From: Alphaproteobacteria bacterium
GTDB lineage: Bacteria; Pseudomonadota; Alphaproteobacteria; Ferrovibrionales; Ferrovibrionaceae
Assembly: GCA_026126165.1 (NCBI GenBank)
Contig: JAHCJR010000001.1
Location: forward strand, 1 to 64,000
Reading direction: 5' to 3'
DNA length: 64,000 nucleotides
Of the stretch, positions 14,081 to 62,932 are shown piece after piece; the stretch's first letter is position 1, and every line of letters begins with the position of its first letter. The translations under genes and the position numbers were made by a program. The notes beneath the pieces are model-generated. The model worked only from the letters and a program-made list of their open reading frames with translations, had not been told where the DNA came from and made no database searches.

Positions 14081-15655
14081 ATGAACGCACCTGATCCTGC
14101 CGCCCCGAAATCCGTTCTGGCACAGCCGTCCGGCTCGCCGGCTGGTTTGACCTGGCGGCCCGTCTGGCGGATGGCCTGGGCGAGCCTCGGCCTGTCGCTG
14201 CTGGCGGCCAATGCCCTGCTCTTCCAGACCCTGGCCTCGATGGTGCAGATCTGGAACGGCAGTTCGACCTACAATTACTGCCTGCTCATCCCGCTGATCA
14301 GCGTCTATGTGGCCTGGCAGCGCCGCGCCGCGATCGCGCCACTCGCGCCCCGCCCCTCCGTGCTCGGCATGTTGTTCGTGCTGGGTTTCGGCTGCCTCTG
14401 GCTGGTGGCGGATGCGGCCAGCCTGAACGAAGGGCGGCATGCCGCCCTCATCGGCATCAACCAGTCTCTCATCCTGGCCATCCTCGGCCGCGAGGTGGCG
14501 CTCAGGCTCGCCTTCCCCATCCTCTATCTCTGGCTCGCCCTGCCGACGGGGCTGTTCCTGCTCGGCCCGTTGCAGAGTCTCGCCGCCGACATGTCCACGC
14601 ATCTGCTGCGGATTTCGGGCATTCCGGTGTTTCAGCAGGGAACCCTGCTCGAAGTGCCCTCGGGCCGCTATGTGGTGGCGGAAGTCTGCGCCGGGCTGAA
14701 TTTCCTGCTTGCCTCCCTGGCACTTTCGCTCGTCTATGCGAACCTGCTCTACACCGGCTGGATCAAGCGCACGCTCGCGGTGGCGATCGCCCTCCTCATC
14801 GCCCTGGTCGCCAACTGGCTGCGCATCTGGGGCATCATCGCCTTCAACCACATGACCGGAGGGGGCATCGATATCGGCGGCGATCATCTGGTCTGGGGCT
14901 GGGGCTTCTTCGCCATCGTCTGCCTCGTCACCATGTTGTTCGGCCTCGCCTTCCGCGACGACGAGGACGAGGCGGCAACGACAGCGGAGACGCGATCTGC
15001 CGCGCCGGCGAGCCGCGGCACCCGGGCCGGCGACGGGCGCCGTCTGGCGGGCGCGGGCGCGCTCGCCATCGGCCTGCTCGTCCTGCCGCTCGCCTACGGC
15101 GAATACACGATCTCGCCCGTGACCAGGGCGGAGGGGCCGGCGGTGATGCTGGCTCCGGCGCAACCCTGGCGGGCCGTCGCCCCTTCGAACGACTGGTCCC
15201 CGATCCATCTCGGCGCAGACCGTCGGACAAGGGCCGCCTTCGTATCAGACGACGGGACCGTCGAGATCTACATCGCGCAGTATTCCCACGAGGCCGAAGG
15301 CCGCAAGCTGATCGCCCATGGCAACGAACTCTATGACCCGAAGACCTGGCGCCTGCTCGGGCGCGGTGCAGCTTCCCTGACCCTGAACGGCCGCGAGTCA
15401 CAGGTCAGCGTGGTGCGGCTGATCGGTGAACGGGAACGGCGGGAGATCTGGTACTGGTACCTGGTCGATGGCCGCGTCGTGACCAGTCTGGCCATGATGA
15501 AGCTGTTGCAGGCGAAGGCGAGGCTGCTTGGCGGCACCCGCGAGGCGGCGGTGATCGCCATTTCCGTCGATACGGCGGAAGGTGCGGGCGCGGGCCTGCT
15601 GCGGCGCTTCGCCGCCGAGACCCGCTTTCAGCCCACTGCGTGGTTCGCGCGCTGA
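14081..15655 (+). CDS. xrtA: Exosortase A fused to EpsI
   Basis: 524 residues in two parts. Residues 1-290 form a polytopic exosortase with about eight membrane segments and the full catalytic triad: C203 (AEVCAGL), R248 (NWLRIW) and H269 (GGDHLVW). Exosortases are membrane transpeptidases that cut PEP-CTERM sorting tails and are thought to hand the protein to another acceptor. After an acidic linker (DDEDE), residues ~310-524 have one more membrane segment and an EpsI-type periplasmic domain, which in other bacteria is a separate gene. The fusion is known in alphaproteobacteria. No PEP-CTERM protein is encoded in the window. The 3' end overlaps the convergent acyltransferase gene by 28 bp. 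Confidence 0.93.
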   Translation: MNAPDPAAPKSVLAQPSGSPAGLTWRPVWRMAWASLGLSLLAANALLFQTLASMVQIWNGSSTYNYCLLIPLISVYVAWQRRAAIAPLAPRPSVLGMLFVLGFGCLWLVADAASLNEGRHAALIGINQSLILAILGREVALRLAFPILYLWLALPTGLFLLGPLQSLAADMSTHLLRISGIPVFQQGTLLEVPSGRYVVAEVCAGLNFLLASLALSLVYANLLYTGWIKRTLAVAIALLIALVANWLRIWGIIAFNHMTGGGIDIGGDHLVWGWGFFAIVCLVTMLFGLAFRDDEDEAATTAETRSAAPASRGTRAGDGRRLAGAGALAIGLLVLPLAYGEYTISPVTRAEGPAVMLAPAQPWRAVAPSNDWSPIHLGADRRTRAAFVSDDGTVEIYIAQYSHEAEGRKLIAHGNELYDPKTWRLLGRGAASLTLNGRESQVSVVRLIGERERREIWYWYLVDGRVVTSLAMMKLLQAKARLLGGTREAAVIAISVDTAEGAGAGLLRRFAAETRFQPTAWFAR

Positions 15656-37098: not shown

Positions 37099-39440
37099 AG
37101 CGCGATCGGCGTCATTGCCACGCCGCCAATGGTCTCGAGGAAGTAGCGGAAATAACGCTCCGTCGTGGTGATGAACTCCTTCAGGTCGCGCTCGGTCCGC
37201 ACATAGGGCGTATTGCCCGGCGAGAGGGAGGGCGAGTGGAACGAGAAAGTGATCACCCGCTGCCCGCCCGCCAGCAGCGATTCGGTGAGGCGGCGCAGCT
37301 CGTCGAAGGTGATGCCTTCCGGCGTGAGGGTGATGCGTTCCATCGCATGCAGTCGCGCGAAGGGGCCGAGGATGGCATAACGGGTGAGCGCCGAGCGGTC
37401 GAGCCGGGGAAAGATGCGCGGCCCCGCCCAGGCGAGCGAGCCGGCGAAGCCCCGCGAGACAGGCAGGGAGAGCAGGCGGCGATGCTGGCCGAACCAGAAG
37501 GGCGTGGCGCCGAAGCCGCTATAATCCGGCCCGCCCTCGGCGGAAAGGTCGGTATGCGGCATGATGCTGGTATCGACCAGGTAGCCCAGGTCTTCGAGGA
37601 TCTCGGCACTGTTCGGCCCTAGCCCGTAGCGGCCCGCCTTGTAGACCTTCGGCCGGACGCCGATCCGCGCCTGGATTTCCTCGGTGAGCGCGGCGAGCTT
37701 GGCCCGTTCCAGCGCACGCGGCAGGTTGCCGGCGAAGGAATTGGCCTTGGAGACCGTCTCCTGGTGCGGCGGATTGACCCAGGGATGGAGCTGCGCGCCC
37801 ACGAGGCAGCGGCCCTCCCGCGACCAGGCGCCGAGCAGGGCCTGACCCATGTCCGAGGTCACCACCGGATAATCCACGAGATAGGTCGGCACGATGTTCC
37901 AGCGCTGGAAGACATCCTGGGCGAGCGACAGGTTTCCCAGCGAGGAGACGGAGAAATTCTCGCGCGAGAAGGGCTGACGCCAGTCGAAATCCTCTTCCGT
38001 GTCGACGATGGCGACCAGCGCGGGCCGCTCCAGCGCCGCCGCATCGATCGGCGCGTGGAAGCGGCTGCGGGTCATGCCGGTCTGGTCGCGGCGCGGCTGC
38101 GGATCGCGCCGGAGCGAGGGGCGCAGCTCGTTCAGGAAGCGCTCCAGGCTGGCGAACTGTTCGGCCCGCGAGAGGCCCTGGGGGCTGCGTTCGGGAAGCG
38201 GCGCGATGCCGCCCGAGGCCTTCTCCGCGATCCAGGTCCGGAGCTGCCTGGCGATGCCTTCTGCCTCGTTGCAGACGATGCCGGCCCCATGCTCGCGCAT
38301 GATCTGCGCCACCGACCCGCCGTCGTAGCCGATGCCGAGGACGGGCCGCCGCGCGGCTATGTATTCGAACAGCTTGCCCGAAATGGTGCCTTCCTCGCGC
38401 GGATCGTTCCATTGCAGATGCAGCAGCACGTCGGCGTTCATCTGCAGCCGCAGCGCCTCCCGGTAGGGAATGGGCGGGCTCACCTGGACCAGGTCTTCCA
38501 CGCCGCAGCGCCGGGCGAGCGCGCGCACCACCTCGTTGCTGGTGCCGACGAACTCCACGCGGACGCGCCCGCGCTCCTCACCCAGGAGGCCGATGGCCTG
38601 GAAGAGCGGCGTCGGATCGCGGTAGCCTTCGTAGATATGGCCGGTATAGACGATGCGCACCGGACCTTCGGCCGATGGCCGGGCCGGCGGCATCTCGGGG
38701 AAGTCCTCGAGCACGAAACCGTTCATGATGAGCGCGGTCGGCTTGCCGAACTTGCGCCGGAGCACGCCCTGCCAGGGCGGCGAGACGGTGACCATGGCGG
38801 CGGCGCGGTCGAGCACGCGCCCTTCCCAGATCCGTTCGAGCACCTTGCGCGCGGCCGAGTAGCTGTAATAGGGATGGTCGATCCAGAGATCGCGGAACTC
38901 GGCGATCCAGGGGATGCTGAAGCGCCGCGCGAGCCGGTCCGCCACCAGCAGGCTGGTGAAGGGCGGCGCCGAGGCATAGATGATATCCGGCCGCCAGTCG
39001 GCGAGCAGGGTGCTGCCGGCCCGCACCGCGTGCGGCAGCCAGCCGATGCGGTTGTCGGGCCAGCGCACCAGCTCGCAATAGAGCCGGCGCAGCGCCACGC
39101 GCAGCCGGCTTTCCGCGCCACCCCCGCCGGTCGCCCCCGACGAGGCGCCGCCCAGTGCATCGGCGGCGGCCGGGGTCGCGGCGGCCCGGGCGCGGCGGCG
39201 GTACCAGTCCGGGATCAGGCTGTCGATCGCATGATCGACCTCGAACCAGGGCGTGTAGACGACCCGCTCCTCCGGTATTTCCACGGGCAGGTTCTTCGCC
39301 TCGCCCGAATCGGCGGCGAGCACGCGCACGTCCCAGCCGCGCTCCATGAGGAAGCGCGAAAGCTTGCCGATGCGCAGCGCCCCGATCCCGGCATAGGGCG
39401 GATAGAGGTAGGACACGAGGAGGATGCGCGGCTTCTGCAT
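37035..39440 (-). CDS. Fusion of a GT4-type glycosyltransferase with a polysaccharide deacetylase-like domain
   Basis: 801 residues. Residues 1-~440 are a GT-B glycosyltransferase: SYLYPPYAGIGALRIGKLSRFL at the start, EFRDLWIDHPYY, VYTGHIYEGYRDP opening the donor half, and EEGTISGKLFEYIAARRPVLG in place of the usual E(x7)E. After a linker (about 440-470), the rest is a NodB-like carbohydrate esterase domain: VDTEEDFDW (catalytic/metal aspartates), QLHPWVNPP (a metal histidine), YKAGRYGLG and ITFSFHSPSL. The two activities are usually separate genes in exosortase loci. The fused enzyme might add an N-acetyl sugar and deacetylate it. Metal-site completeness cannot be fully checked by eye. Confidence 0.82.
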   Translation of the reverse strand: MQKPRILLVSYLYPPYAGIGALRIGKLSRFLMERGWDVRVLAADSGEAKNLPVEIPEERVVYTPWFEVDHAIDSLIPDWYRRRARAAATPAAADALGGASSGATGGGGAESRLRVALRRLYCELVRWPDNRIGWLPHAVRAGSTLLADWRPDIIYASAPPFTSLLVADRLARRFSIPWIAEFRDLWIDHPYYSYSAARKVLERIWEGRVLDRAAAMVTVSPPWQGVLRRKFGKPTALIMNGFVLEDFPEMPPARPSAEGPVRIVYTGHIYEGYRDPTPLFQAIGLLGEERGRVRVEFVGTSNEVVRALARRCGVEDLVQVSPPIPYREALRLQMNADVLLHLQWNDPREEGTISGKLFEYIAARRPVLGIGYDGGSVAQIMREHGAGIVCNEAEGIARQLRTWIAEKASGGIAPLPERSPQGLSRAEQFASLERFLNELRPSLRRDPQPRRDQTGMTRSRFHAPIDAAALERPALVAIVDTEEDFDWRQPFSRENFSVSSLGNLSLAQDVFQRWNIVPTYLVDYPVVTSDMGQALLGAWSREGRCLVGAQLHPWVNPPHQETVSKANSFAGNLPRALERAKLAALTEEIQARIGVRPKVYKAGRYGLGPNSAEILEDLGYLVDTSIMPHTDLSAEGGPDYSGFGATPFWFGQHRRLLSLPVSRGFAGSLAWAGPRIFPRLDRSALTRYAILGPFARLHAMERITLTPEGITFDELRRLTESLLAGGQRVITFSFHSPSLSPGNTPYVRTERDLKEFITTTERYFRYFLETIGGVAMTPIALYERLSGEAAPVPSGGANRVS

Positions 39441-39627
39441 TCTGGCACAGTATCTCCCGGCACGGTGCGGCTGGACAAGCGCCGCGCCCGGCCCACAGAC
39501 TGCGCCGGCCCGGTTAAGGATATCTCAAGCGCGGGCGCGGTTGTATGTCGCGGCGCGATATGGAGAATGCGCCCGGCCTCGCCCGCCTGGCGCGCGCGGC
39601 GGCAAGGGTCTCGGGCCAGGAGCGGGA

Positions 39628-41061
39628 ATGGACGTAGCCGACAGGATCAGGCGGGGCGTGAAGTGGCTGGCGCTCGGCAAGGCGGCGACGCAGGTCATCC
39701 TGTGGGGCTGCACCATCGTCACCATGCGCCTGCTGGCGCCGGCGGATTACGGCCTGGTGGCGCTGGCGGCGGTGTTCATGTCCTTCGTCGCGCTGTTCCA
39801 GGAACTGGGCCTCAGGGTGCGCCTCGTCCAGCTCGAGAAGCTGGAGCACGATTACGTGCGGGCGGTCTATGGCCTCAGCATCCTGGTCAATCTCACGCTC
39901 GCGCTCTGCCTCGTTGCCGCGGCGCCGCTGATCGCCGCCTTCTTCGGCGAGGAGCGGCTGGCGCTCATCGTCACCCTGCTCGCCGTGCAGTTCCTCTTCT
40001 CCTCCATCGCCGTGATCCCGGATGCGATGATCCGCCGCAGCCTCGATTTCCGCGCGCTCACGCTGGTCGAGATGCTGCAATCGACGAGCGGCGCGCTGCT
40101 CACCCTGGCGCTCGCCTGGATGGGCTACGGCGTCTGGTCGCTGGTCTGCGGCACCCTGCTCGCCGCCCTCGTGAAATCGCTCGGACTGATCTGGATCTCG
40201 CCCTTCCGGGCGCTGCCGCGCCTGACATTCAAGGGCATGCGCAGCACCCTGGTCTTCGGCGGCTATGTCACCGGGCAGCGGATCTCCTGGTGGTTCTATA
40301 CGGGGTTCAGCACCATGATCCTCGGCCGCCTGTTCGATGCGGCAACGGTCGGCATCTACACGGTGGCGCATACCATCGCCTTCATGCCGCTTGAGAAGCT
40401 CGGCTCTATCATGGCGACGGCGAGCTTTGCCGGCCTCTCCCGCGTCGCGGGCGACATGCCCGTCTTCCAGGCCTATCTCCTGAAGGGCGTGCGGCTGCTC
40501 TCGGTCGCCGGGTTTCCGGTCTTCTTCGGCATTGCCGCCATCGTGGCGGAGCTGACGCCACTGGTGCTGGGCGAGAAGTGGCTCCCCATCGTGCCGGTCG
40601 CCCAGCTTCTCTGCCTGGTTATGCCGCTGCGCATGCTGAACGGGCCGCTGACCGAGAGCCTGAACGCAATTGGCAAGCCGGCGGCGGCCTGGAACAACGT
40701 GCTGATCGTCGCGGTCTTCGTCATTGCCGGCGTCGCGGCCGGCGTCGCCTGGGGCCCCGTCGGCGTGGCGTGGGGCTGGGTCGCGTCCTTTCCCGTCGCC
40801 TTCCTGATCAGCACGGCGCGGGTGGCGCGCCATTGCGGCCTCGCCTATAGAGAGTTTCTCCGGCCCATGCTGCCGGCGGCAGGTCTGGCCGGCGCGATGC
40901 TGACCGGACTGCATTTCGGGCGGCCCTATCTCCCGCTGCCCTTTCCATCCTGGGAAGGGCTCGCGGCCACCGTGCTGCTTGGCATCCTGTTCTATGGCCC
41001 GGCCACCCTGCTCCTCGACCGGGAAGGCAGCCGGCAGGTGCGGGCACTGCTCAAACGATGA
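39628..41061 (+). CDS. Polysaccharide flippase (MOP superfamily, Wzx/WzxC-like)
   Basis: 477 residues from ATG 39628, preceded by GGAGCGGGA. About 12-14 membrane segments spread over the full length. It begins with an amphipathic VADRIRRGVKWLALGKAATQV and the charged first helix typical of Wzx proteins; the motif LAPADYGLVALAAVFMSFV and the later segment FGGYVTGQRISWWFYTGFSTMILGR are found in WzxC/LPS-exporter-like flippases. It moves lipid-linked glycan units to the periplasm. It is divergent from the GT/deacetylase fusion across a 187-bp gap that must hold both promoters. Confidence 0.88.
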   Translation: MDVADRIRRGVKWLALGKAATQVILWGCTIVTMRLLAPADYGLVALAAVFMSFVALFQELGLRVRLVQLEKLEHDYVRAVYGLSILVNLTLALCLVAAAPLIAAFFGEERLALIVTLLAVQFLFSSIAVIPDAMIRRSLDFRALTLVEMLQSTSGALLTLALAWMGYGVWSLVCGTLLAALVKSLGLIWISPFRALPRLTFKGMRSTLVFGGYVTGQRISWWFYTGFSTMILGRLFDAATVGIYTVAHTIAFMPLEKLGSIMATASFAGLSRVAGDMPVFQAYLLKGVRLLSVAGFPVFFGIAAIVAELTPLVLGEKWLPIVPVAQLLCLVMPLRMLNGPLTESLNAIGKPAAAWNNVLIVAVFVIAGVAAGVAWGPVGVAWGWVASFPVAFLISTARVARHCGLAYREFLRPMLPAAGLAGAMLTGLHFGRPYLPLPFPSWEGLAATVLLGILFYGPATLLLDREGSRQVRALLKR

Positions 41062-41083: not shown

Positions 41084-41263
41084 TCACCGTTCCGGCAGTT
41101 TGAACCGCCGGTCGGTCTCGTTCTCGCGCGGCGCCTGATTGTCCCGCATGGCGAACAGGCCCTTGGTCTCGCCGGTATCGCCCGCGCCATCGTTGATGAT
41201 GGTCCAGTGCACGATCAGGGCGATGACGACGAGGGCCGCGGCAAACAGAAGTCCTGTTACCAT
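41084..41263 (-). CDS. Small membrane protein (59 aa) coupled to the O-glycosylation ligase gene
   Basis: ATG 41261-41263 overlaps the stop of the ligase gene as TAATG, with GGGAG seven bases upstream; TGA at 41084-41086. Residues 3-22 form one membrane helix (GLLFAAALVVIALIVHWTII), followed by a hydrophilic, charged tail (MRDNQAPRENETDRRFKLPER). The termination-reinitiation layout strongly supports translation. I do not recognise the family. Expression in fixed ratio with the ligase suggests an accessory subunit or regulator of it. The 3' end is 22 bp from the convergent flippase stop. Confidence 0.75.
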   Translation of the reverse strand: MVTGLLFAAALVVIALIVHWTIINDGAGDTGETKGLFAMRDNQAPRENETDRRFKLPER

Positions 41264-42606
41264 TACCGTCTCCCGAGTTCGGAAACATTGCCGGGGACAG
41301 CCGGTTTAGGGCCGGTGCCCGGAAGTTCGAAACGCGCCGGCTGGCTGGCCATGGCGAGGGTGACGCCCGAGATCTGACGTTCCACTGCCTTGCGGGTCGC
41401 GGCCATGAGGGCGACCATGACATAGACCACGTCGTAGTAAGCCATGCTGAGGGCCGCGCCGGCCACGGCGAAGGCGACCAGACTGACCTGCACCATTCCG
41501 GCAAGATCGTAAGCCCAGACCAGATCGGCCCGTCGCCGCGTCAAGGTCTGGATGCGCCGGGCATTGGTGATACCCGCCGCGAGAATGCCAAGGAACAGCA
41601 GCAAGCCGACGATTCCATGTTCGCCGAGCACCTGGAGATAGACGCTATGCGCCGCCCTCGGCTTCTCTGCGTTTGGTACGTACCGGTAGTAGACCTCGGC
41701 TGTCTGCTGCGCTTGGAACCCTGCGCCGACCAGCGGCCGGTCCATGGCAATCTGGACCGCGACTCCCCAAGCTTCAATCCTTGCCCGGAACGATTCGTCG
41801 GACATTGGATCGCGGATCGTCTGCATCCGGGTTTCCCATTCGGCCGGCATGAAATTCACGCCGACCGCCACGACGAGTGTTGCGACGAAAACGGTAACAA
41901 TCTTGTACCGGCCCTTGACGAAGAGCGCGAAGAACACAACCGCAAGTCCGACCAATCCACCTCGCGAATAGCTTCCAATCACCGCCACCGAATTGAGGGT
42001 AAAAACCGCAATCAGCCCAAGGCGGAGAAATAAATAGCGGGAGTTCAAACGCAGATAATTGATTAATGGCAGGGTCAGGACCAGTGCCAATGCCAGGTGG
42101 TTGTTGTCTGCTATTTCTGTCTGCGGTGGCCCCCACACCCTGTCAGTACCGCCGGTCAGCAGGACGAACCCGCCACCCTTGATCCCGTAATAGGCAAGGC
42201 ACGACACGATCAACAGGATGAAGGCATGAATTCGCGTTCGCCGATCAATGAGGAAGAGAACGAGTATGGCGAAGATCAGCGTCTTTATGTGGCGATCAAA
42301 GTAGGTCCAGGCGGCACTGCCATTCAGGGCAAACAAGGTTGTCAGAAGGAACCATAGTCCGAAAGCGAGCATCAGCCATAGCGTGCGATCCGAATAGAGC
42401 CGGACCCTTTCCTTGTAAAGGATCAGGCCGAGCAACGTGATCCCCGCGACGATCATATTGAGCGGAAGAAGCGTCCCAAACCCGAAGACCTGCCGGTGCG
42501 GGCTCATGAACGAGATCCAGCCCCAGACCAATAGGCCAACATAGGGCAGGAACAGCCCGATGGGTGCGAGGCAAAAATATGTCAGCATCAGGACGAGATC
42601 ACGCAT
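41263..42606 (-). CDS. Putative O-glycosylation ligase, exosortase A-associated (O-antigen ligase fold)
   Basis: 447 residues, about 10-12 membrane segments and one larger periplasmic loop near residues 260-320, as in Wzy/WaaL proteins. The N-terminal LMLTYFCLAPIGLFLPYVG and WGWISFMSPHRQVFGFG are characteristic of the exosortase A-associated ligase family. GGTDRVWGPPQTEIADNNHLALAL, and later HSVYLQVLGEHGIVGL with a likely catalytic histidine in the family's large loop, fit. It would transfer the lipid-linked glycan to protein or another acceptor at the periplasmic face. Upstream of the start (42607-42751) lie 145 bp without a gene, turning A+T-rich. Confidence 0.9.
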   Translation of the reverse strand: MRDLVLMLTYFCLAPIGLFLPYVGLLVWGWISFMSPHRQVFGFGTLLPLNMIVAGITLLGLILYKERVRLYSDRTLWLMLAFGLWFLLTTLFALNGSAAWTYFDRHIKTLIFAILVLFLIDRRTRIHAFILLIVSCLAYYGIKGGGFVLLTGGTDRVWGPPQTEIADNNHLALALVLTLPLINYLRLNSRYLFLRLGLIAVFTLNSVAVIGSYSRGGLVGLAVVFFALFVKGRYKIVTVFVATLVVAVGVNFMPAEWETRMQTIRDPMSDESFRARIEAWGVAVQIAMDRPLVGAGFQAQQTAEVYYRYVPNAEKPRAAHSVYLQVLGEHGIVGLLLFLGILAAGITNARRIQTLTRRRADLVWAYDLAGMVQVSLVAFAVAGAALSMAYYDVVYVMVALMAATRKAVERQISGVTLAMASQPARFELPGTGPKPAVPGNVSELGRR

Positions 42607-43630: not shown

Positions 43631-44872
43631 TTAGTTCACCCTCCTTTCGAGTGCTTCGACATCCTGTGAAAAATCCTGTAGATACCCCCTCCGCGCGGCA
43701 CGGATCGAAGAGATGCGCACTTCCACATTCTCCGGCCGCAACCTCACCCCTCGTACGTCCTCATGACCCGAAATCAGCATCCTGTCGAGAAGCTGCCGGC
43801 CTAGTTCTGCCTTGTAATGCCCGGCTTCCCAATACCATTTCATCTGCGTCGTCACATCTCCCCTCTTCGGAACAGGCTCCATGGTCCAGGTGGTATAGCC
43901 CGAGAAATCCCAAAGCTCCGGCTCCTTCCGCCAGTCACCCGACGACGACTCCTGAACCAGTTTTGTAATGTCACGCTTCCAGGATTCGAATGCCGACCAC
44001 AGCCCGGCAATGCGGAAGATCTCCAGAATTCTCGCATGATAGGGATGAATGAACAGTATGACTTCGGCACCCTCGGCCCGGGCAATGTCCATCATCCGGC
44101 GAAGGATCTCATAGCTGAAACCAAGACCGCCCCGCGGATCGCGGGTGGTTCGCGGGCCGGCCATGCGCTGCTGCAGGTTCTCCCTGTCCCGCTGTTCGAA
44201 CAGGCTGAAATGACCCTCCAGCCGAACCAGGCGGTGATATTCATCCAGCGGGTTGAAGCCGAGCGGCGTTCGGTGACCGGCTTCGATCCCCTGCCCGAGG
44301 ACCGTCAGAACGCTGTCCGCGACCGAGTTGAGCGAGAAGAACGCAACATTGAAATCACCGGCCAAAGCACGTCCGCGCGTCCGGTTCGGCGCGCCGTTCC
44401 TGTCCACGACGAGACGCCCTTCAAACTCGCGGACGGGCTGCTCGAACGGCGAGCGCGCATCGGGCCGTGCGAGAAAATCCACGAAATCAAGTCCAACGAT
44501 CAGCAGCCTGAGGCGTTGGCCGTGAATGGCATGCTGAAGATAGCGGAGCTGTTCGAACATCCCGGCCCCCGGAATGCCCAGATTGAAGGGGCGCAGTCCT
44601 GCCTCGATCAGCGCCGGGTGCTCCGGATCGATCCCGGCTTCGACACGCGAATTTCCCAGGATTATCGCATCCGGCGCCGCGCGGCGTGCGTCATACGCCT
44701 TGTTCAGCCTGATCTGCAAGCCCGCTTGAGGTTTCCGCTGGTTGAAGTCAGGAATCTCGATCAGTGCCAGCATCCGGTATGGATCGACAAGGAGGCAGGC
44801 CCCGGCAACGGCAAGTCCGCCGATCAATACGGTCCCAAGCAGGCCGGCCAGGTAACGGGTAAAACGGTCCAT
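43631..44872 (-). CDS. SGNH/GDSL-like partner protein of the MBOAT acyltransferase
   Basis: 413 residues from ATG 44872, 5 bp after the MBOAT stop. One N-terminal membrane helix (LLGTVLIGGLAVAGACLLV) anchors a periplasmic domain. AIILGNSRVEAGIDPEH is the block I region of SGNH hydrolases, with serine in GNSR, followed by FNLGIPGAGMFEQL (block II-like) and FIHPYHARILEIFR, where DxxH-type residues occur. AlgJ/AlgX- and PatB-like proteins of this kind take an acyl group delivered through an MBOAT channel and put it on a glycan. The pair here probably O-acetylates the exopolysaccharide. The open frame extends upstream into the MBOAT gene as a shadow. Confidence 0.82.
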   Translation of the reverse strand: MDRFTRYLAGLLGTVLIGGLAVAGACLLVDPYRMLALIEIPDFNQRKPQAGLQIRLNKAYDARRAAPDAIILGNSRVEAGIDPEHPALIEAGLRPFNLGIPGAGMFEQLRYLQHAIHGQRLRLLIVGLDFVDFLARPDARSPFEQPVREFEGRLVVDRNGAPNRTRGRALAGDFNVAFFSLNSVADSVLTVLGQGIEAGHRTPLGFNPLDEYHRLVRLEGHFSLFEQRDRENLQQRMAGPRTTRDPRGGLGFSYEILRRMMDIARAEGAEVILFIHPYHARILEIFRIAGLWSAFESWKRDITKLVQESSSGDWRKEPELWDFSGYTTWTMEPVPKRGDVTTQMKWYWEAGHYKAELGRQLLDRMLISGHEDVRGVRLRPENVEVRISSIRAARRGYLQDFSQDVEALERRVN

Positions 44873-44877
44873 GACGA

Positions 44878-52247: not shown

Positions 52248-53582
52248 CTAGCCCCGGAAGGCGCGCGCCATCGCGTCCTGGAAGGGCTGCGCGAAGTACT
52301 GGAAGAGCGTCCGCTCCTCCTTGTTGATGATCGCCTCGACGGGGAGACCCGGCACCAGGCGGTAGTCCTTCAGCTTCTCCCGGCCCTCCTCGCCCACGTC
52401 GATACGGACGATATAGTAGGGCTGCTCGGTGCGCGGATTGACCAGACGGTCGGCGGAGACCATGCGCACCGTGCCATGCACGACCGGCGTGGTGCCGCGC
52501 CGGAAGCCGACGAAGCGGAGATCGGCGGTGAGGCCCTCGTTCACGCCCTCGATATCGCCCGGGCTGACCCTGGCCTCGACCACGAGTTCGTCCTGCTTCG
52601 GCACGATATCGAGCAGGCGCGCGCCCGGCTGTGCGACGCCGCCCGCGGTATGGATGGCAAGATCGACCACCGTGCCGGCGACCGGCGCCCGCACGGCAAG
52701 CCGCCCCAGACTTTCCCGCACCACATTGAGCCGCTCCATGGTCTCGAAGACCTGCGCCTGCGCCTCGCGCAACTCGGTTGCCACGCTTTCGCTGAAGGAC
52801 TTGCGGATCTGGAAGATCTGGAGCTGCGCCTCGCCGATCGCCTGGCGCACCTCGGAAAGACGGGCGACGACCTCGCCGCGCTCGCCGGCAACCCGGGCCA
52901 TTTCGCGCTCGAGGGCGGAGACCTGCTTGCCGGATGCGACACCCTTCTCGAAGAGCTGCTTGAGGCCCTGGAGCTCGGTGTTGAAGAGCTGGAGCTGGCG
53001 TATTTTCGATGCCTCCTGCTGTTGCAGGCCGGCAATCTGCGATTTGGACTGCTCGATCCGGTTCTCGAGGATCGAGACCTGGCTGGTGAGCGAGGCCCGG
53101 CGCGCCTCGAAGATGCGCCGCTGGCCGTCGACCGACTCGGCGAGTTCCGGATCCCGCACCGCCATTTCCTGCAGATCGGCCGGGAATTGCACGTGCGTCC
53201 GCCCCTCGCGTTCCGCCGTCAGCCGCGATTCGAGCGCGCGTGCCGATGCGTAGCGACCTTCCAGCAGCTTCAGGCTGGCCTGCATCTGCGTCGCATCGAA
53301 ATGCATCAGCACCTGGCCCGCCTCGACCGCCTCGCCGTCGCGCACCAGGATCTCGCGCACGATGCCGCCCTCGAGATGCGCGACCGACTTGCGGTTGCTC
53401 TCGACGACCAGCGCACCCGGCGCGATCGCCGCCGCCGAAATCGGCGCCGTGGCCGACCACAGGCCGAGCGCACCGAAGGAAGCGCCGACCACCAGCAGGC
53501 CGGCCAGCGTCAGGCTGGCATACTGGTCCTTGCCGACGAGACGGCGGGCGGGACGGCGGGTTTCCATGCTGTTCTCGCTCAT
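52248..53582 (-). CDS. Type I secretion membrane fusion protein (HlyD family)
   Basis: 444 residues. Short cytosolic N-terminus, one membrane helix (about 27-46: LTLAGLLVVGASFGALGLWS), a first barrel half with ALVVESNRKSVAHLEGGIVREI (lipoyl-like half motif), a long coiled-coil hairpin rich in Glu/Arg/Leu (about 110-290), then the second half motif VRAPVAGTVVDLAIHTAGGV and a C-terminal RIDVGEEG...PGLPVEAII. This is the PrtE/HlyD layout, linking the ABC exporter to an outer-membrane TolC protein, which is not in the window. It overlaps the ABC gene by 4 bp (ATGA). Confidence 0.95.
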   Translation of the reverse strand: MSENSMETRRPARRLVGKDQYASLTLAGLLVVGASFGALGLWSATAPISAAAIAPGALVVESNRKSVAHLEGGIVREILVRDGEAVEAGQVLMHFDATQMQASLKLLEGRYASARALESRLTAEREGRTHVQFPADLQEMAVRDPELAESVDGQRRIFEARRASLTSQVSILENRIEQSKSQIAGLQQQEASKIRQLQLFNTELQGLKQLFEKGVASGKQVSALEREMARVAGERGEVVARLSEVRQAIGEAQLQIFQIRKSFSESVATELREAQAQVFETMERLNVVRESLGRLAVRAPVAGTVVDLAIHTAGGVAQPGARLLDIVPKQDELVVEARVSPGDIEGVNEGLTADLRFVGFRRGTTPVVHGTVRMVSADRLVNPRTEQPYYIVRIDVGEEGREKLKDYRLVPGLPVEAIINKEERTLFQYFAQPFQDAMARAFRG

Positions 53583-55621: not shown

Positions 55622-56827
55622 TCAGGCTGCCCAGGCCGCGAGCGAGGTGCCCAGCCGCTCTGCCACGATCCTGTCCATGCGTGCCATCGCGCTCTCCCAG
55701 TCATGATGGCTGCGCACCCGCGCCCGCCCGGCCTGCGACAGGCGGCGGCGTTCCTCGGGATGCCCGAGAAGATTGCAGACCGCCCGTGCCGTCGCCTCCG
55801 CTCCGTCGGCGACGATCAGATGCTCGCCCGGCACCGCGTCGACCCCGCGCGCGCCGATGGAACTGGTCACCACCGGCACACCCATGGCCATCGCTTCCAG
55901 GATTTTGTTCTGGGTCCCGCGCGCGATCGAAAGCGGGGCGACCATCACCGCGGAGCGGCGGACGTATGGCCGCACGTCCGGCACGGAACCGGTCACCTCC
56001 ACCCCCGGCAAGGAGGCGAGTTCCTGAACCGGACGGCTCGGATTGGCGCCAACAATGACGATGCGCGCTTCCGCATGCTGTTGGCGGATGCGCGGCAATG
56101 TCGTCCGGCAGAACTCGACCATACAGGCTTCGTTGGGGAAATAGTCCATTCTGCCGATGAAGCTGAGCAGGCAGGGTTCGGCATCCGTCCCGTCGGGGGC
56201 GAAATACTCTGCATCGACCCCGTTCGGAAACCAGTCGCTCCGCTCCGCCAGGCCGAATGCGCGAAGCGTTTCGAGTTCGCCTGCCGTGGCCACGGTCGAG
56301 AGATCAAAGACGCGACCAAGCCGCTGTTCCTCCTTCTCCAGCCGACGGCCCTCCAGACCGTAGACCAGAGACATGGGAAAGGACTTGTGGCGCGCATATT
56401 CCTGCCATTTCTGCGAATCCATGTCGCAGAAATCCAGGATCTTCGGGAGTCCGGGAAGGTGCTCGACATACTGTGCCGCCGAGGAGCTGTGCACGAAGGC
56501 AAGATCGAACGGCTTCTCGCGCGCCTTCGCGTCGATCCAGCGCGCCAGTTCCCCGGAATGGAAATACCCCATCGAAAGTGGCTCGGTGCCAAGCATCCGC
56601 AGGGCGGTGCGCGCAAGCTGCACGGGCTCGCTCACCCGGGCGGCGAAGAATTCGTGACACTGACCGGCGATTCCCTGGGCCGCCGCCAATTCGCCGTCAT
56701 TGCGGCAGATCGAAGCAACGCTCACTTCGTGGCGTTTCGCCAGATGCCTGATGATGTGATAGGCGCGGATCTTGCCGCCCTCGTTGGGCGGATAGGGAAA
56801 GCGGTGGCTGACGAAAAGAACTCGCAC
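55622..56827 (-). CDS. Exosortase-associated sugar transferase (GT4)
   Basis: 401 residues. The start MRVLFVSHRFPYPPNEGGKI followed by RAYHIIRHLAKRHEVSV is the signature of the PEP-CTERM/EpsH1-system sugar transferase family. GT-B C-terminal half: FIGRMDYFPNEACMVEFC, VVGANPS-like loop, and the donor motif ARGTQNKILEAMAMGVPVV with its conserved glutamate. Last gene of a four-gene minus-strand operon (TPR protein, FemAB-like protein, amidotransferase, this gene) with gaps of 18 bp or less before it and 237 bp of non-coding DNA after it. Confidence 0.92.
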   Translation of the reverse strand: MRVLFVSHRFPYPPNEGGKIRAYHIIRHLAKRHEVSVASICRNDGELAAAQGIAGQCHEFFAARVSEPVQLARTALRMLGTEPLSMGYFHSGELARWIDAKAREKPFDLAFVHSSSAAQYVEHLPGLPKILDFCDMDSQKWQEYARHKSFPMSLVYGLEGRRLEKEEQRLGRVFDLSTVATAGELETLRAFGLAERSDWFPNGVDAEYFAPDGTDAEPCLLSFIGRMDYFPNEACMVEFCRTTLPRIRQQHAEARIVIVGANPSRPVQELASLPGVEVTGSVPDVRPYVRRSAVMVAPLSIARGTQNKILEAMAMGVPVVTSSIGARGVDAVPGEHLIVADGAEATARAVCNLLGHPEERRRLSQAGRARVRSHHDWESAMARMDRIVAERLGTSLAAWAA

Positions 56828-56845
56828 GGTCGGGCGCCCTCCACT

Positions 56846-58774
56846 TCAATAGCTGGCCGCGGCGAGGTCCTCGCCGGCCGCTTCGCCAGCCACGACGCGG
56901 CGCAGAAAGCCCTCGAAGGCATAGATCAGCCACAGCGGTTGCGAATGATCGGACCTGCCGGACAGGTGCCGCGACAGCAGCTCGCCGATGGCATTCTGGT
57001 CGAACAGGCCGCTATCGGCGAGCCAGGGGCTGGCCACTGCCTCGCAGAGCCGGGCACGGAGCGGCCCGCGAAACCAGCTTGCCAGCGGCACGGAAAAACC
57101 CTGCTTCGGCCGATAAAGAACCTCGTGGGGAAGGAAGGGCTCCAACGCTTTCTTCAGGATGAACTTCCGTTCACTACCGCGTATCTTGAGCGCGCGCGGC
57201 AGCCCGGAAGCCCATTCCACGAAAGTATGGTCGAGCATCGGCACGCGCACCTCAAGGCCGTTGGCCATGCTCGCGCGGTCCACCTTGGTGAGGATGTCGC
57301 CGACCAGGTAAGACCGCAGGTCGGTGTATTGCGCGGCCGCCACCACATCGTCGGTATCGGCCTCCGCCATCAGTCGCTCGATCAGGTTGATGGCGTGATA
57401 GCCGCCAAGATCGGACTTCAATGCGCGGGAGTAAAGCTCCTGACGCTGCCCGTCCTTCACCACGGCAACGTTGTTGAAGTAGCCTTCCGTGTCGTCGAGT
57501 GCCAGTTCCTGGAACGTGGTGCGGGCCCGCAGGAACTGAGGTGCCCAGTCGAGCTTCGGGTAGACCCGGCCAAGCGCCCCGAACAGCGGTCGACGGATCG
57601 CCTCAGGCAGCAGCTTTCGCGCCTGCGACTCGCGAAGATGCCAGAGATAGCGCCGGTAACCGGCGAAAAGCTCGTCCCCTGCATCGCCGGACAGCGCGAC
57701 GGTGACGCCGGTCCGCGCCATGGCGCAGACACGGAAGGTGGGAAGCGCCGAAGCATCGCCGAATGGTTCGTCATAGATGTCGGGCAGCCGATCGAGGATA
57801 TCGAATGCCTCGGGCGCCAGCACCCGGCTCGCATGAGATGTGCGATAGCGTTGCGCCACCATGTCCGCGAACCTTGACTCATCGAACACCGCCTCGCCGA
57901 ACGAGACATTGAATGTCCGCACCGGATCGTCGCTCAACGATGCCATCATCGCGACCACGCCACTCGAATCGACGCCGCCCGAGAGGAAGGCGCCGAGCGG
58001 CACTTCGGAGATCAGGCGGACATCTACGCAATCCTTTAGCCGCGCGATCAATTCCGATGCCGCCTGCTCCTCGCCCATGGCCGGCCGCGGTGCCAGGCGG
58101 GGCCGCCAGTAGGCGCGCGGCCTCACCTCGCCGCCCCGCTCGATGCGCAGGCTCTCGCCGGGTCCAAGCTTGCGGACGGCCGAGAAGATGCATTTCGGAT
58201 CGGGCACGTAGCCGAGCGCGAAATAGTCCTCGACCGCCTGCCGGTCGATCGAACGGTCGAGACCGGGGTAGACCAGCAGCGACTTGAGTTCCGAGGCGAA
58301 CAGAAACTGCCGGTCCGCCACCTCTGCATAATACAGGGGCTTCTTGCCCAGCCGGTCCCTCGCCAGGAACAGCGTGCGGCGGTTACGGTCCCAGATCGCA
58401 AAAGCGAACATGCCGCGCAGCCGGTTCACGCAATCCTCGTCCCACTCCTCCCAGGCATGCACGATGGCTTCGGTGTCCGAGCGGGTCGTGAATCGGTGGC
58501 CCAGGGCTTCCAGTTCCCTGGTCAGTTCCCGGAAATTGTAGATCTCGCCATTGAAGACGATGCCGACCGAGCGGTCCTCGTTCCAGATCGGCTGATCGCC
58601 GCCCGCCACGTCGATGATCGCCAGGCGGCGGTGGCCGAGGCCGATCCCCGGCTCGAATAGAAAACCCTCGCCATCGGGCCCGCGATGGGCGATGCGTTCC
58701 GTCATGCGTCGGACGAGCGAACGATCGGGCGCCCGCTCCCCTGCCCGGTCGAACCAGCCTGTTATGCCGCACAT
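56846..58774 (-). CDS. Exosortase A-associated amidotransferase (asparagine synthase family)
   Basis: 642 residues. Complete two-domain asparagine-synthetase-type enzyme: nucleophile C2 in MCGITGWFDRAG, RIAHRGPDGEG, NGEIYNFREL and the SDTE loop make a working class II glutaminase; the synthetase part has the PP-loop SGGVDSSGV (about residue 264) and LSGDAGDELFAGYRRY. It uses glutamine and ATP to amidate a carboxylate. The length and surroundings match the exosortase A-associated amidotransferase. With uronic acids made by this locus, a uronamide is a plausible product. It lies 12 bp after the FemAB-like gene. Confidence 0.94.
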   Translation of the reverse strand: MCGITGWFDRAGERAPDRSLVRRMTERIAHRGPDGEGFLFEPGIGLGHRRLAIIDVAGGDQPIWNEDRSVGIVFNGEIYNFRELTRELEALGHRFTTRSDTEAIVHAWEEWDEDCVNRLRGMFAFAIWDRNRRTLFLARDRLGKKPLYYAEVADRQFLFASELKSLLVYPGLDRSIDRQAVEDYFALGYVPDPKCIFSAVRKLGPGESLRIERGGEVRPRAYWRPRLAPRPAMGEEQAASELIARLKDCVDVRLISEVPLGAFLSGGVDSSGVVAMMASLSDDPVRTFNVSFGEAVFDESRFADMVAQRYRTSHASRVLAPEAFDILDRLPDIYDEPFGDASALPTFRVCAMARTGVTVALSGDAGDELFAGYRRYLWHLRESQARKLLPEAIRRPLFGALGRVYPKLDWAPQFLRARTTFQELALDDTEGYFNNVAVVKDGQRQELYSRALKSDLGGYHAINLIERLMAEADTDDVVAAAQYTDLRSYLVGDILTKVDRASMANGLEVRVPMLDHTFVEWASGLPRALKIRGSERKFILKKALEPFLPHEVLYRPKQGFSVPLASWFRGPLRARLCEAVASPWLADSGLFDQNAIGELLSRHLSGRSDHSQPLWLIYAFEGFLRRVVAGEAAGEDLAAASY

Positions 58775-58786
58775 GGGGTGGCCCGC

Positions 58787-59833
58787 TCAGCCGAGATTGC
58801 GGACGATGAGCGGACCCAGAAGGTTCGCCAGGCCGAGCGGCAGGCGCTTCCAGGTCTCGATCATGAGGCGGTAGCGCGGATTGAGAGGATTGTGCTCTGG
58901 CGGTTCGCCTCCATGGCGCAAGTGAAACGCATAGGTGAGCGGCGTCGGCTCGAAACCCCAGTTCTTCTTGAAGGCAAAGGCGCCGGTTCCGTACTTGCTG
59001 CGCCCGAAATCGAACAGCCTGTAGCCTTCCGCCGCGCCGCGCCGGATGATGTCCCAATACATGAAGTCGTGTGCGCCGTACTTTCTCGCCTCCGGCACTC
59101 CGCCCGCATAATAGGGCAGGATCTGATCACGGAAACGGAAGGTCAAGCAGCCGGCGAGCGGTTCGCCATCGTGATAGATGTCGAGGATCTCACACGCATC
59201 GCCGAACTGCCGCTTGAGGCTGGCGAAGTACCTCCTGGGAAAGGTCGGGGTGCCGAGATTGCGCAGGCTGATCGCATAGAGGCGCCAGTTGACGTCGACA
59301 TCGCCAACGACCCGCGCCTCGAGTCCCTTGCCGAGGCTCTGGCGCACCACCGCCCGCTGCTTGCGCGGGATCATGGCAAGATTCTTCTCTGGATCCGGAT
59401 CGATCGCACGCCGGAAAGTCGCGTAAGTACCCGACTTCTCGATCCAGCCCGGCCGGCCTTCGGTGGCGGCACGATACTCCACGTGATTGACGTTCAGCCG
59501 CGCCGCCAGGGCAAGCGCCGCCGCGTCGAGGCGAAGCAACGCCTCCTCCCCGGTCCCGACCGGCCCGCCATGCACGGCGAAGGCTCCCGAGATCAACGAA
59601 TGTCCGAACAGCAGCGAGCGGATGCGCACCAGCGGCAGGACGCCGACGATCTCGCCCCCCCGTTCCGCATAGAGATAGGGCGCCTCGTGACCGAAGCTCT
59701 CGGCGATCACCTGGCGCCAACCGGAAAGATGGAAAAACGTGGCCTCGGGATGGGCCTCGACGAAGGCATCCCATCGCGCGCGATCGGCGTCCTGGAACTC
59801 CTTCACGACCACGGACTGGAGCGGTGCCGTCAT
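58787..59833 (-). CDS. FemAB-like exosortase/PEP-CTERM-associated acyltransferase
   Basis: 348 residues. GNAT-fold tandem like FemAB: ATFFHLSGWRQVIAESFGHE near the start, VGVLPLVRIRSLLFGHSLIS, LAMIPRKQRAVVRQSLGKG in the middle (the family's basic stretch), and YYAGGVPEARKYGAHDFMYWDIIRR with GYRLFDFGRSKYGTGAFAFKKNWGFE at the C-terminus. Such enzymes add an amino acid or acyl group to an amino sugar or peptide. It is a known member of exosortase A loci. Sits between prsT (49 bp upstream) and the amidotransferase (12 bp downstream). Confidence 0.92.
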   Translation of the reverse strand: MTAPLQSVVVKEFQDADRARWDAFVEAHPEATFFHLSGWRQVIAESFGHEAPYLYAERGGEIVGVLPLVRIRSLLFGHSLISGAFAVHGGPVGTGEEALLRLDAAALALAARLNVNHVEYRAATEGRPGWIEKSGTYATFRRAIDPDPEKNLAMIPRKQRAVVRQSLGKGLEARVVGDVDVNWRLYAISLRNLGTPTFPRRYFASLKRQFGDACEILDIYHDGEPLAGCLTFRFRDQILPYYAGGVPEARKYGAHDFMYWDIIRRGAAEGYRLFDFGRSKYGTGAFAFKKNWGFEPTPLTYAFHLRHGGEPPEHNPLNPRYRLMIETWKRLPLGLANLLGPLIVRNLG

Positions 59834-59882
59834 GTTCCCCCGCCCTCGCGTCCTGCCTCGCGCGAGCGCGCGCCCGACGGCC

Positions 59883-62690
59883 TCACCCGCCCAGTTCCTT
59901 CAGAAGCTGCTCGGCCTTCGGTCGGTCGTTGAAGCGATCCTCACCCGCCATGACCTCGCGCAGGACTGCCCTGGCCTCCTCCCGTTCGCCCGCCTTAACC
60001 AGGCCGAGGGCGAGGTGGTAGCCGATCTCGCCGGAGTTCGGCGCCTTGGCGCGCGCTGAGCGCAAATGCTCGAGGCCTCGCTTGATCTCGCCCTGCTGCA
60101 TGAGCAGATGGCCCAGCGTGTCCTCGACGAAAGCCGAGTTCGGCGCCAGCTTGAAAGCGCGCTCGGCCAGTCCGAGTGCCCGGCCATCGCCGCGCTCGCC
60201 GAGAATCCAGGCGACGTTGTTCAGCAGCAGGGCGTTATCCGGCTCGGACCTGAGCAGAAGCTCGTAATGAACCAGCGCCTCGTCCTTGCGCTGCAGGCTG
60301 AGATACAGATCGGCAAGCGCGAAGCGCGCCACGTTGTCCTCGGCGCGCGCCTCGACCCAGTCCTGCAGGGTCTTGATCGCCTTCTCGTGTTCCCCGGATC
60401 GCGCCAGCGCACCCGAGAGCCGCGTCACGATCGGGCTCGATGGCTGCCGGGCCTGCGCGGTCCGATAGGCTTCGACCGCTTCGCGATGCTTGCCGATCCG
60501 CGTGAGCGTGTCGCCCAGAATGACATGACCAGCGGTCAGCGCCGGCCGCGCGCGCGACCAATCTGTCGCCATCCTCTCGGCTGCTTCCGGGCGCTTGGCG
60601 CGCAATTCGGCCTCGATCAGTTCGAGCAGCGCCGGCGCATAGTTGCTGTCCACCGCCAGCGCCTGACGGAACGAGGACAGCGCGCCCTGCTGGTCCCGCG
60701 CCTGCTGCAACGCCTTGCCCAGCCGGTAATGCGCTTCCGCGACGCGCGGGGTCAGCGCCACCACCTGGCGGAAAGTTTGCACCGCGCTCGCCGTCTCGCC
60801 GGTCGCGAGCTGGGTGCGGGCCAGGGAATCCAGGGCTACCGGGTTGTCCGGAAGCCGGCTTTGCAGATCGCGCGCCACCTGGATCGCGCGATCAGGCTTG
60901 CCATCGCGCATGTAGAGATCGATCAGCGCCAGCGATGGGCGAAGCGCCTTCGGGTCGATGGTCCGCGCCTTTTCGAGCCATTCCTGCGCCTCCGCCATCC
61001 GGTTTCCGGAGACCGCGAGCTGGGCCAGACCCACATGCGCTTCGATGCTGTTGGGCGTCGTCTCAAGGACCGAGCGGAAACCCTGGGCTGCCTTCTCGCG
61101 CTCGCCCGTGCGCGCATCGAGCGTCGCCAGATTGAGCCGGGCGGGCGTGAAGTCAGGCTTCAGCTTGATCGCCTCCTCGAATGCGGCGCGTGCCTCGGCA
61201 ATGGCATTGCGCGCCACGTGGACGGTGCCGATCACGTTGTGCGGGACGGGGTTGTCCGGCTGTCGGGCCTGCAAGTCCCTGGCGGCGGCCAGCGCCTTGT
61301 CGTGTTCGCCGCCGCGCATGTAGGCCAGTGCCAGGGCAAGTCGGGCCTGGACCGAGTTCGGATCCTGCTCGAGCGCCGATTCCAGTTCCTTGACCGCCTC
61401 GGTGGACTGGCCAAGTTGCATGCGCCCATAGGCGATCTGGAGCTGCTGGCGCACATCCGTGTTCGGCAGCGCCGCCGCCCGGTCGAACCACTTGGAGGAT
61501 TCCTGGAACTGCCGGTCGCGCAGATAGGCGGCCGCGAGCAGGCCGAAGGTCACCGGATCCTCGACGCCGGTATCGACCGCGAGCTTGAGGACCTCGATGG
61601 CCCGCTCGTTGGCATTGCGGCGCATATAGAGTTCCGCAAGAAGCTGTCGGGCGCGGATATCGCGCGGCACCAGCGCGAGATACCGCTCGAAACCCGCCTC
61701 GGCCTGGCCGAACTGCTGCAGGCGGTAATGCAGGGCTGCCAGCAGATAGAGATTGGGCGGGTAGCCGGAAATGCCCGGGCCAAGCCGCTCCAGCCGTTCG
61801 CTCGCCGTCTTGAGTTCGTTCTTGCGGGCGTTGAGCAGGGCAAAAACATAGTTGGCGATCGGATGACCCGGCTGGATCGCCAGGGCCGCGCGGCTGTCCT
61901 TCTCCGCATCCTCGTTGCGCCGCTCGTCCAGCGCCAGAACGGCCCGGCCGATGAGCGCCAGCACGTTGCGCGGATCGCCTTTCAGCGCCGCGTCGAAGTT
62001 CGCGCGCGCTTCGGCCTTTCGGCCGCTCAGCCGCTGCAGCTCGCCCTTGATGGCCAGTGCCTCGGACAGTTCGGCATTCAGCGCCAGCGCCCGGTCGATC
62101 TCCTCTTCGGCCTTGCGCTGGTCGGACTGCTCGATGCCGATCCGCGCCAGACCGACATGGGCACGCGCTTCCTGCGCGTTGACCTGGATCGCTTCCTCGA
62201 ACGAAGTTCGCGCGAGATTGAGCTCGCGCTTGCCGAGGTAGGCGTAGCCACGCCAGAGCCGGACCACGCCTTCCACCATCTGCGCCCGCGTTCCCGGCGC
62301 GATCTCGCGCAGGATATCGTCGAACTTTGCCTGCGCGAACAGCGACTGCGCCAGGGGATCCAGATAGCGCTCCTCCGGGGCGCCAAGTTCGCGCGCCACC
62401 TTCACTTCCTTCTCAGCCGCGGGCGCATCGCCGATCCGCAGCGATACCTCCGCCAGCGCGAGGCGGGCATCGATATTGTTCGGGTCCGTGCGGACCGCAT
62501 TGCGCAGGTTGATCACGGCGCTGCGCAGATCGCCGCTGACAAGCTGTTTCTGACCATCGGCGAGATACTTCTCGCTACTCGGACCGCGCAGCGCGATCGC
62601 CACGCCTCCGATGCCCACCACCAGGACGACCAGGACGAGGATCGACCAGAGCCAGCGGCGGGACTTTGATTTCGCGGACCTGCTTGCCAT
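59883..62690 (-). CDS. prsT: PEP-CTERM system TPR-repeat protein PrsT
   Basis: 935 residues from ATG 62690 with GGAGG upstream; an open frame reaches 62735 but adds only unlikely residues. One membrane helix near the N-terminus (about 12-34, after KSKSRRW) without a lipobox cysteine, so it is an anchored rather than lipidated form. The rest is more than 20 tetratricopeptide units (for example YLADGQKQLVSGDLRSAVI, ALAYMRGGEHDKAL, LLLNNVAWILGERGDGRAL). Size, architecture and neighbours match PrsT of exosortase systems, thought to act as a periplasmic scaffold for glycan assembly or export. First gene of its operon. Confidence 0.93.
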   Translation of the reverse strand: MASRSAKSKSRRWLWSILVLVVLVVGIGGVAIALRGPSSEKYLADGQKQLVSGDLRSAVINLRNAVRTDPNNIDARLALAEVSLRIGDAPAAEKEVKVARELGAPEERYLDPLAQSLFAQAKFDDILREIAPGTRAQMVEGVVRLWRGYAYLGKRELNLARTSFEEAIQVNAQEARAHVGLARIGIEQSDQRKAEEEIDRALALNAELSEALAIKGELQRLSGRKAEARANFDAALKGDPRNVLALIGRAVLALDERRNEDAEKDSRAALAIQPGHPIANYVFALLNARKNELKTASERLERLGPGISGYPPNLYLLAALHYRLQQFGQAEAGFERYLALVPRDIRARQLLAELYMRRNANERAIEVLKLAVDTGVEDPVTFGLLAAAYLRDRQFQESSKWFDRAAALPNTDVRQQLQIAYGRMQLGQSTEAVKELESALEQDPNSVQARLALALAYMRGGEHDKALAAARDLQARQPDNPVPHNVIGTVHVARNAIAEARAAFEEAIKLKPDFTPARLNLATLDARTGEREKAAQGFRSVLETTPNSIEAHVGLAQLAVSGNRMAEAQEWLEKARTIDPKALRPSLALIDLYMRDGKPDRAIQVARDLQSRLPDNPVALDSLARTQLATGETASAVQTFRQVVALTPRVAEAHYRLGKALQQARDQQGALSSFRQALAVDSNYAPALLELIEAELRAKRPEAAERMATDWSRARPALTAGHVILGDTLTRIGKHREAVEAYRTAQARQPSSPIVTRLSGALARSGEHEKAIKTLQDWVEARAEDNVARFALADLYLSLQRKDEALVHYELLLRSEPDNALLLNNVAWILGERGDGRALGLAERAFKLAPNSAFVEDTLGHLLMQQGEIKRGLEHLRSARAKAPNSGEIGYHLALGLVKAGEREEARAVLREVMAGEDRFNDRPKAEQLLKELGG

Positions 62691-62932
62691 GCCAGTCACT
62701 TCCTCCGGTTGTCGAAAGTTGCGGCCACCGAACAATGCGGCCTCAGGTCAGCGCTCGGACCGGCGCGATAGCGCGGGCAGGCCATCGGCCTTCGGCCCCG
62801 CGTCTGCGGACGGTATTCCTTGTCGCATTGCATCTCGCTGAGCCCACCTCGACTATATCTATACATTCACACCAGCGTTTCAAATCACTTACCGCCGGCA
62901 TTCCGGCGGACAGTTACGGCAAGTGATCATGG

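Follow-up and report, generated by a model that had tools for sequence, protein, structure and literature searches.

A conserved single-helix microprotein family associated with the exosortase A-linked O-glycosylation ligase

The question raised by this locus is whether the short open reading frame (ORF) that follows the gene for an exosortase-associated ligase is a gene at all and, if it is, whether its product works together with that enzyme. The window, i.e., the whole stretch of 64,000 nt analysed here, carries on its minus strand (positions 41263..42606) the gene for a putative O-glycosylation ligase associated with the exosortase A (XrtA) system (DUF5935 plus Wzy_C). The predicted enzyme scored 442.3 bits against TIGR03097 (cut-off 188.1 bits), covering positions 1-406 of the 408 of that profile, and was also above the Pfam cut-offs for PF19358 and PF04932. 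The ORF lies at 41084..41263 on the same strand, and its product, a 59-aa predicted single-helix membrane protein, is proposed here to be a partner of the ligase on the basis of the ORF itself, its codon use, a homologue in a congener and a family of ligase-side relatives. The surroundings are those of an XrtA locus, with exosortase A and its companion families all over cut-off: exosortase A and an EpsI domain are fused in a single chain (14081..15655, plus strand; TIGR03109, 258 bits, cut-off 208; TIGR02914, 101 bits, cut-off 42.8), and the XrtA-linked glycosyltransferase TIGR03087, the amidotransferase TIGR03108, the FemAB protein TIGR03019 and the PrsT protein TIGR02917 are encoded at 55622..62735 (minus strand). 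The microprotein gene faces a flippase-like gene located at 39424-41061 on the opposite strand. The locus also includes type I secretion genes and an RTX-type protein of 1798 aa with calcium-binding repeats, which adjoins a TIGR01842 ATPase/permease and a TIGR01843 HlyD adaptor (46555-51951 and 52248-55384, minus strand). At 43631-46446 (minus strand) a MBOAT (DltB-like) O-acyltransferase gene is followed by an ORF without a Pfam or NCBIfam match, and the two may together acylate a polysaccharide.

The 59-codon ORF starts at an ATG, and its product reads MVTGLLFAAALVVIALIVHWTIINDGAGDTGETKGLFAMRDNQAPRENETDRRFKLPER. A preliminary description of this DNA had reported overlapping start and stop codons and a good ribosome site, and both were borne out by direct reading: in the TAATG sequence, base 41263 is common to the TAA of the preceding ligase gene and the ATG of the ORF, on the minus strand, and a ribosome-binding-like GGGAG sequence (41270..41274, minus strand) is located 6 nt before the ATG. 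The length of the ORF is in itself weak evidence of coding. An open frame of 58 stop-free codons is expected in about 13% of cases by chance at the local G+C, which is what speaks for a chance open frame in G+C-rich DNA. The codon usage of the ORF was coding-like (score +14.6, with a model trained on the other genes of the window), and the four overlapping ORFs tested gave scores from -18.6 to -72.4. A search of genome contigs for the ligase returned one locus, on contig JAHCJQ010000049.1 of a congener (G016, an alphaproteobacterial MAG), and there a 60-aa homologue is encoded 13 nt past the ligase stop codon. The two proteins are 64% identical, and at codon positions 1, 2 and 3 the numbers of identical bases were 46, 48 and 27 of 59, so that the changes are concentrated at third positions (dN 0.24, dS 1.40, dN/dS 0.17). 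A second pair of homologues (G328/G245) gave dN 0.32 and dS 1.36. These dN and dS values point to selection at the protein level, and the 59-codon ORF is a real, conserved coding gene under such selection. The chance open frame was rejected on this evidence of conservation, and we give it practically no credence.

The preliminary description had also seen one membrane helix and a charged tail in the product, and the predictions agree with it. A transmembrane helix is predicted for codons 2-24 (41192..41260, minus strand; AlphaFold2 helix 2-24); it has no K or R before it, ends in W-T-I-I-N and is followed by a charged collar and tail. With two input sequences, the mean AlphaFold2 pLDDT was 84 for residues 1-10, 89 for residues 11-20 and 64 for residues 21-30. 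A separate model of the ligase had a pLDDT of 40. In alignment A3, a GLFAMR tail motif was recognised at codons 35-40 (41144..41161, minus strand), inside a helix (residues 31-41) predicted with low confidence (pLDDT about 52). The build common to the members is an N-terminal helix, no early K or R, and a charged tail. Across 38 members there were 0 K/R in residues 1-8 and 83 in residues 19-34, some of these members having been picked with a rule (or by eye) against early K/R, and a GLFAM-like motif followed the charged collar in 22 of the 38. Given this charge pattern and the positive-inside rule, the N-terminus would be outside and the tail cytoplasmic, i.e., the predicted topology is N-out/C-in.

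The preliminary description had suggested looking for the same small ORF downstream of this ligase in other genomes, and had named lack of conservation in relatives as the outcome that would speak against the gene. When the single 59-aa sequence was used as the query, no match was found in plasmids, and among 18 genomes of the family the strong matches were the window itself and the congener; a true homologue (G004) gave an E value of 0.0066. To go further, a profile was needed. A recognisable homologue was read directly downstream of the ligase in nine of 33 TIGR03097 loci drawn from order and class samples, and these nine were used to build profile A2. Over 385 genomes of the class (Alphaproteobacteria), A2 matched in 21 at E<=1e-3, and 20 of those 21 carry an over-cut-off ligase, which is present in 39 of the 385 overall. 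In a held-out test, from which the 8 training genomes were removed, matches were found in 12 of 31 ligase genomes vs 1 of 346 others (Fisher p=1.2e-13). The 21st match (G084) has aroA and rpsA genes in its vicinity and comes from a genome that gave no ligase match at E<=1e-30; its member-like ORF encodes 56 aa (L123:12436-12642, minus strand). At E<=0.1, A2 matched 49 class genomes; the 28 with E values above 1e-3 were regarded as chance matches, and two of these (G147 and G377) were inspected. Hence the small ORF is widely conserved, and its tie to the exosortase A-linked O-glycosylation ligase reaches far beyond the genome of the window.

In 18 of the 20 ligase genomes, gene and ligase are no more than about 0.5 kb apart, and three arrangements occur: the gene follows the ligase on the same strand in 8 (G000, G004, G369, G246, G307, G384, G328 and G245), is divergent from it in 8 (G382, G068, G349, G327, G124, G074, G218 and G156) and is convergent with it in 2 (G309 and G315). 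The family of the window adds two adjacent copies, G016 (downstream) and G001 (divergent), and in a third genome of that family (G012) the ligase is present and the partner was not found. Unlinked copies are those of G018, on another contig, G362, 27 kb from the ligase, and G671. Since the neighbourhood is kept in three arrangements, it does not represent one inherited operon; a neighbour that is kept while the arrangement changes is expected of a functional link, not of a shared ancestral operon. For the same reason, one proposal of the preliminary description, that of a partner made in fixed stoichiometry, was not supported: the TAATG overlap represents one arrangement among several, neither the overlap nor the gene order is conserved, and relatives are divergent, convergent or unlinked. 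Ten more class genomes have a helix ORF assigned by place and architecture, without a profile match (G056, G183, G355, G261, G340, G226, G132, G339, G161 and G259). In three f40 genomes (L126, L127 and L128), a divergent ORF of 52-56 aa that begins MFDTA(M/A)F occupies the position expected for the microprotein; its C-terminal tail is P/K/R-rich and does not carry the tail motif, and this trio, like G261 and G340, was counted by place and architecture only. In 8 of 38 class ligase genomes, a fragment (G239) being left out, no partner was found by profile or by reading (G391, G314, G179, G248, G147, G330, G031 and G163, the last with its ligase on a 3.2-kb contig).

Outside the class, a helix ORF of 26-49 codons was found immediately 5' of the ligase gene, with an overlap at the ligase start in most cases. 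The sizes were 32 aa (G684), 27 aa (G710), 38 aa (G505), 30 aa (G409), 49 aa with a L-G-F-F-A-F-K tail (G412), and 26-39 aa in G760, G769, G791, G784, G801, G773 and G775. In family f190, which has 21 genomes with an over-cut-off ligase, one of them (G774, at a contig start) left out, such an ORF was seen by reading in 16 of the 20 examined, the assignment in four of them (G790, G805, G638 and G705) being by place and architecture alone; none was seen by reading in G767, G788, G796 and G807, nor upstream of the ligase in five genomes near G505 and outside f190 (G834, G832, G814, G816 and G707). With 39-42% identity, the ligase of G505 resembles those encoded on plasmids of the gammaproteobacteria Vibrio alfacsensis (pYa108 and that of strain VA-1) and Photobacterium sp. 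GJ3, and family f190 is thus probably gammaproteobacterial. Ligase matches in plasmids provided named examples. In both Vibrio alfacsensis plasmids, the ligase gene is separated from a glycosyltransferase gene by 86 nt, and this gap holds a 29-codon ORF (L207:2855-2944 and L209:2855-2944) that starts right after one stop codon and overlaps the next start, and an integrase gene is located just after the ligase. The Photobacterium plasmid has a 47-codon ORF at the ligase, and Sphingomonas parapaucimobilis a 53-aa protein that overlaps the ligase start by 8 nt. The earlier statement that such short ORFs are usually missed by annotation had a mixed outcome: the Vibrio ORF is absent from the PLSDB gene table, a table that is incomplete and whose gaps do not prove that the record has no annotation there, but the Sphingomonas ORF does have an annotation, as a hypothetical protein.

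The short upstream ORFs were compared with the class profile by hhalign. Fourteen outside-class sequences (A8: eleven of f190, that of G412, and the Vibrio and Photobacterium ones) matched A3 with a probability of 97.5%, and 32 slices of the ligase alignment, used as membrane-helix controls, reached at most 6.0% against A3 and 9.6% against A8. A third set (A7: G339, G161, G259, G226, G132 and the Sphingomonas protein) matched weakly, with 27.5% against A3 and 67.7% against A8, which is above its controls (at most 13.4%). When A3 was run over 398 genomes of the phylum, none of the short upstream ORFs, which were found by reading, was recovered at E<=0.01; seven genomes matched, of which G000, G671 and G753 carry an over-cut-off ligase, and the other four look like chance matches. 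These very short ORFs, which overlap or abut the ligase start, are what would be expected of a regulatory leader or translational coupler, in which translation of the ORF sets the expression of the ligase and the product is not used. Against it, all 18 adjacent class profile matches are downstream of, divergent from or convergent with the ligase and cannot lead into it, and the dN/dS of 0.17 together with the conserved residue pattern indicates selection on the protein. A leader peptide was rejected on conservation and gene order, and we consider it very improbable.

The association was also counted without a profile. A detector was used that accepted ORFs of 25-130 aa with no K/R in residues 2-7, an early hydrophobic stretch and a charged collar, located within 250 nt and not overlapping called genes. 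Such an ORF was found beside 30 of 50 ligases vs 15 of 290 control genes from these loci (p=7e-19), a comparison that is a specificity check and not an independent set, the detector having been designed after the family was seen and the 50 ligases including the discovery loci. The control set excluded any gene shorter than 750 nt or lying within 300 nt of a locus end, and any ORF that had been scored with the ligase. On reading them, about five of the 30 positives look like chance ORFs (L103, L113, L124, L129 and L177), and real or likely ORFs escaped the rules at L092, L106, L118, L121 and L137, as did the true ORF of L177. The genomic association of the microprotein with the ligase is specific.

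In a tree of 65 ligases, the partner label was strongly clustered. Of the 24 rows that form one clade (support 83/96, not starred), 23 have a partner, i.e., 17 with an adjacent homologue, 5 with an upstream ORF outside the class and 1 unlinked, G735 being the one without; the five ligases with an upstream ORF group together (100/97) inside this partner-bearing clade. In a clade of 12 outside-class ligases, which we would guess to be Betaproteobacteria-like, no partner was seen beside the ligase when the flanks were read. Seven rows labelled "none" in the tree (G226, G132, G339, G161, G259, G261 and G340) were later given ORFs by place and architecture, and they sit in a separate clade of 9 rows. 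This pattern of presence fits co-inheritance of ligase type and partner. From the partnerless genomes and the 12-row clade it follows that the ligase fold does not always depend on a partner. It could be imagined that the microprotein is a helix split off the ligase, which partnerless ligases would still carry in one chain, and the constant finding of a single helix beside a polytopic enzyme would suit such an origin. The two kinds of ligase, however, are alike: the hydropathy helix counts were 8.9 with (n=17) and 8.4 without a partner (n=18), the median C-terminal lengths were 35.0 and 37.5 with no tail helix, and no ligase-microprotein fused chain was present among the loci examined. The microprotein is therefore probably not a detached ligase helix, an origin to which we assign even less weight than to a leader peptide.

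As to known families, the window protein has no Pfam or NCBIfam match, and none of 22 members has a convincing one. The best was to CcmD, a small membrane protein, in 1 of the 22 (E 2.6e-4 with NCBIfam TIGR03141 and 0.0021 with Pfam PF04995); CcmD was rejected, with no match for the window protein, none at E<=1 for the other 21 members, and a locus of the XrtA type and not of cytochrome maturation. The features of the ligase-partner family, i.e., a gene beside TIGR03097, a helix without a preceding basic residue and a charged collar, were all found. A profile search of the PDB gave weak helix matches only (best E 0.52). In the open-access PMC literature we found nothing on this protein family, and no paper with the TIGR03097 accession or the family names tried. 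Taken together, the members almost certainly form a real protein family that is undescribed and has a functional tie to the XrtA ligase. Tiny single-helix subunits encoded beside a large membrane enzyme are known from CydX and similar small oxidase subunits, although that enzyme is unrelated to the ligase. According to the excerpts of PMC11470070, BcsF of E. coli type II cellulose secretion has one transmembrane helix, an amphipathic extension and a cytosolic tail, and recruits BcsE to a synthase. The likeness, as far as those excerpts go, would be one of architecture (a single helix with a cytosolic tail in a polysaccharide secretion system), but the partner there is a synthase and here an enzyme of the Wzy_C/O-antigen-ligase type. 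PgsE/CapE, described in excerpts of PMC9045300 as the 55-aa product of the last gene of the pgs operon and thought to associate with the synthesis machinery, is likewise similar in architecture, as a small protein tied to polymer synthesis machinery, although the polymer and the enzyme are different and the organism is Bacillus.

The best reading, by analogy, is that of a microprotein that would work like BcsF or PgsE, and from the sequence data we infer a physical partnership in which it probably binds the XrtA-linked O-glycosylation ligase as an accessory single-helix subunit. The helix, oriented N-out/C-in as suggested by the charges, would insert into the membrane and pack against the multi-helix ligase. 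Since the helix and the charged collar are common to two classes, down to proteins of 26 residues, they are probably the ancestral core, and this core may stabilise or position the ligase. The cytoplasmic tail with its G-[LIF]-[LF]-A-[ML]-[RK]-like motif would have been added in most of those members from the window's class that the profile found, where it might dock a cytoplasmic partner or the cytoplasmic face of the ligase itself; both the binding and the docking are what we infer from these features. The tail could also be the business end of the protein, bringing to the membrane a cytoplasmic glycosyltransferase or an XrtA-pathway regulator, in the way that BcsF recruits BcsE (a precedent taken from the excerpts of PMC11470070), with a loose or indirect contact to the ligase. 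Such a role would agree with the motif in 22 of 38 members, with a charge pattern that would place the tail in the cytoplasm, and with the divergent copies in G382 and G074, which are followed by glycosyltransferase-like genes; but members of 26-32 residues are almost without a tail and yet overlap or abut the ligase start, and other divergent copies are followed by unrelated genes (a histidine kinase in G068 and a glycerol-3-phosphate dehydrogenase in G124). We regard recruitment by the tail as unlikely, and keep the accessory subunit as the preferred reading.

A broader and more tentative proposal, for which the odds are somewhat less than even, is that the XrtA ligases of many Alpha- and Gammaproteobacteria are two-component enzymes, made of a polytopic catalytic chain and a dedicated single-helix microprotein of 26-130 residues, whose link was kept despite a reshuffled gene order and whose docking tail was gained in many Alphaproteobacteria. 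To our knowledge, which includes literature and database searches, no dedicated microprotein subunit has been described before in the O-antigen-ligase superfamily, and a two-component ligase, if true, would be the first with one. The very name of the TIGR03097 family calls the function of the ligase putative, and a small partner present in two classes gives a concrete handle on it. An enzyme-linked gene down to 26 codons is of a size that annotation can pass over. Expression or reconstitution of the ligase may require the microprotein, and which ligases would need the partner can be read from their tree.
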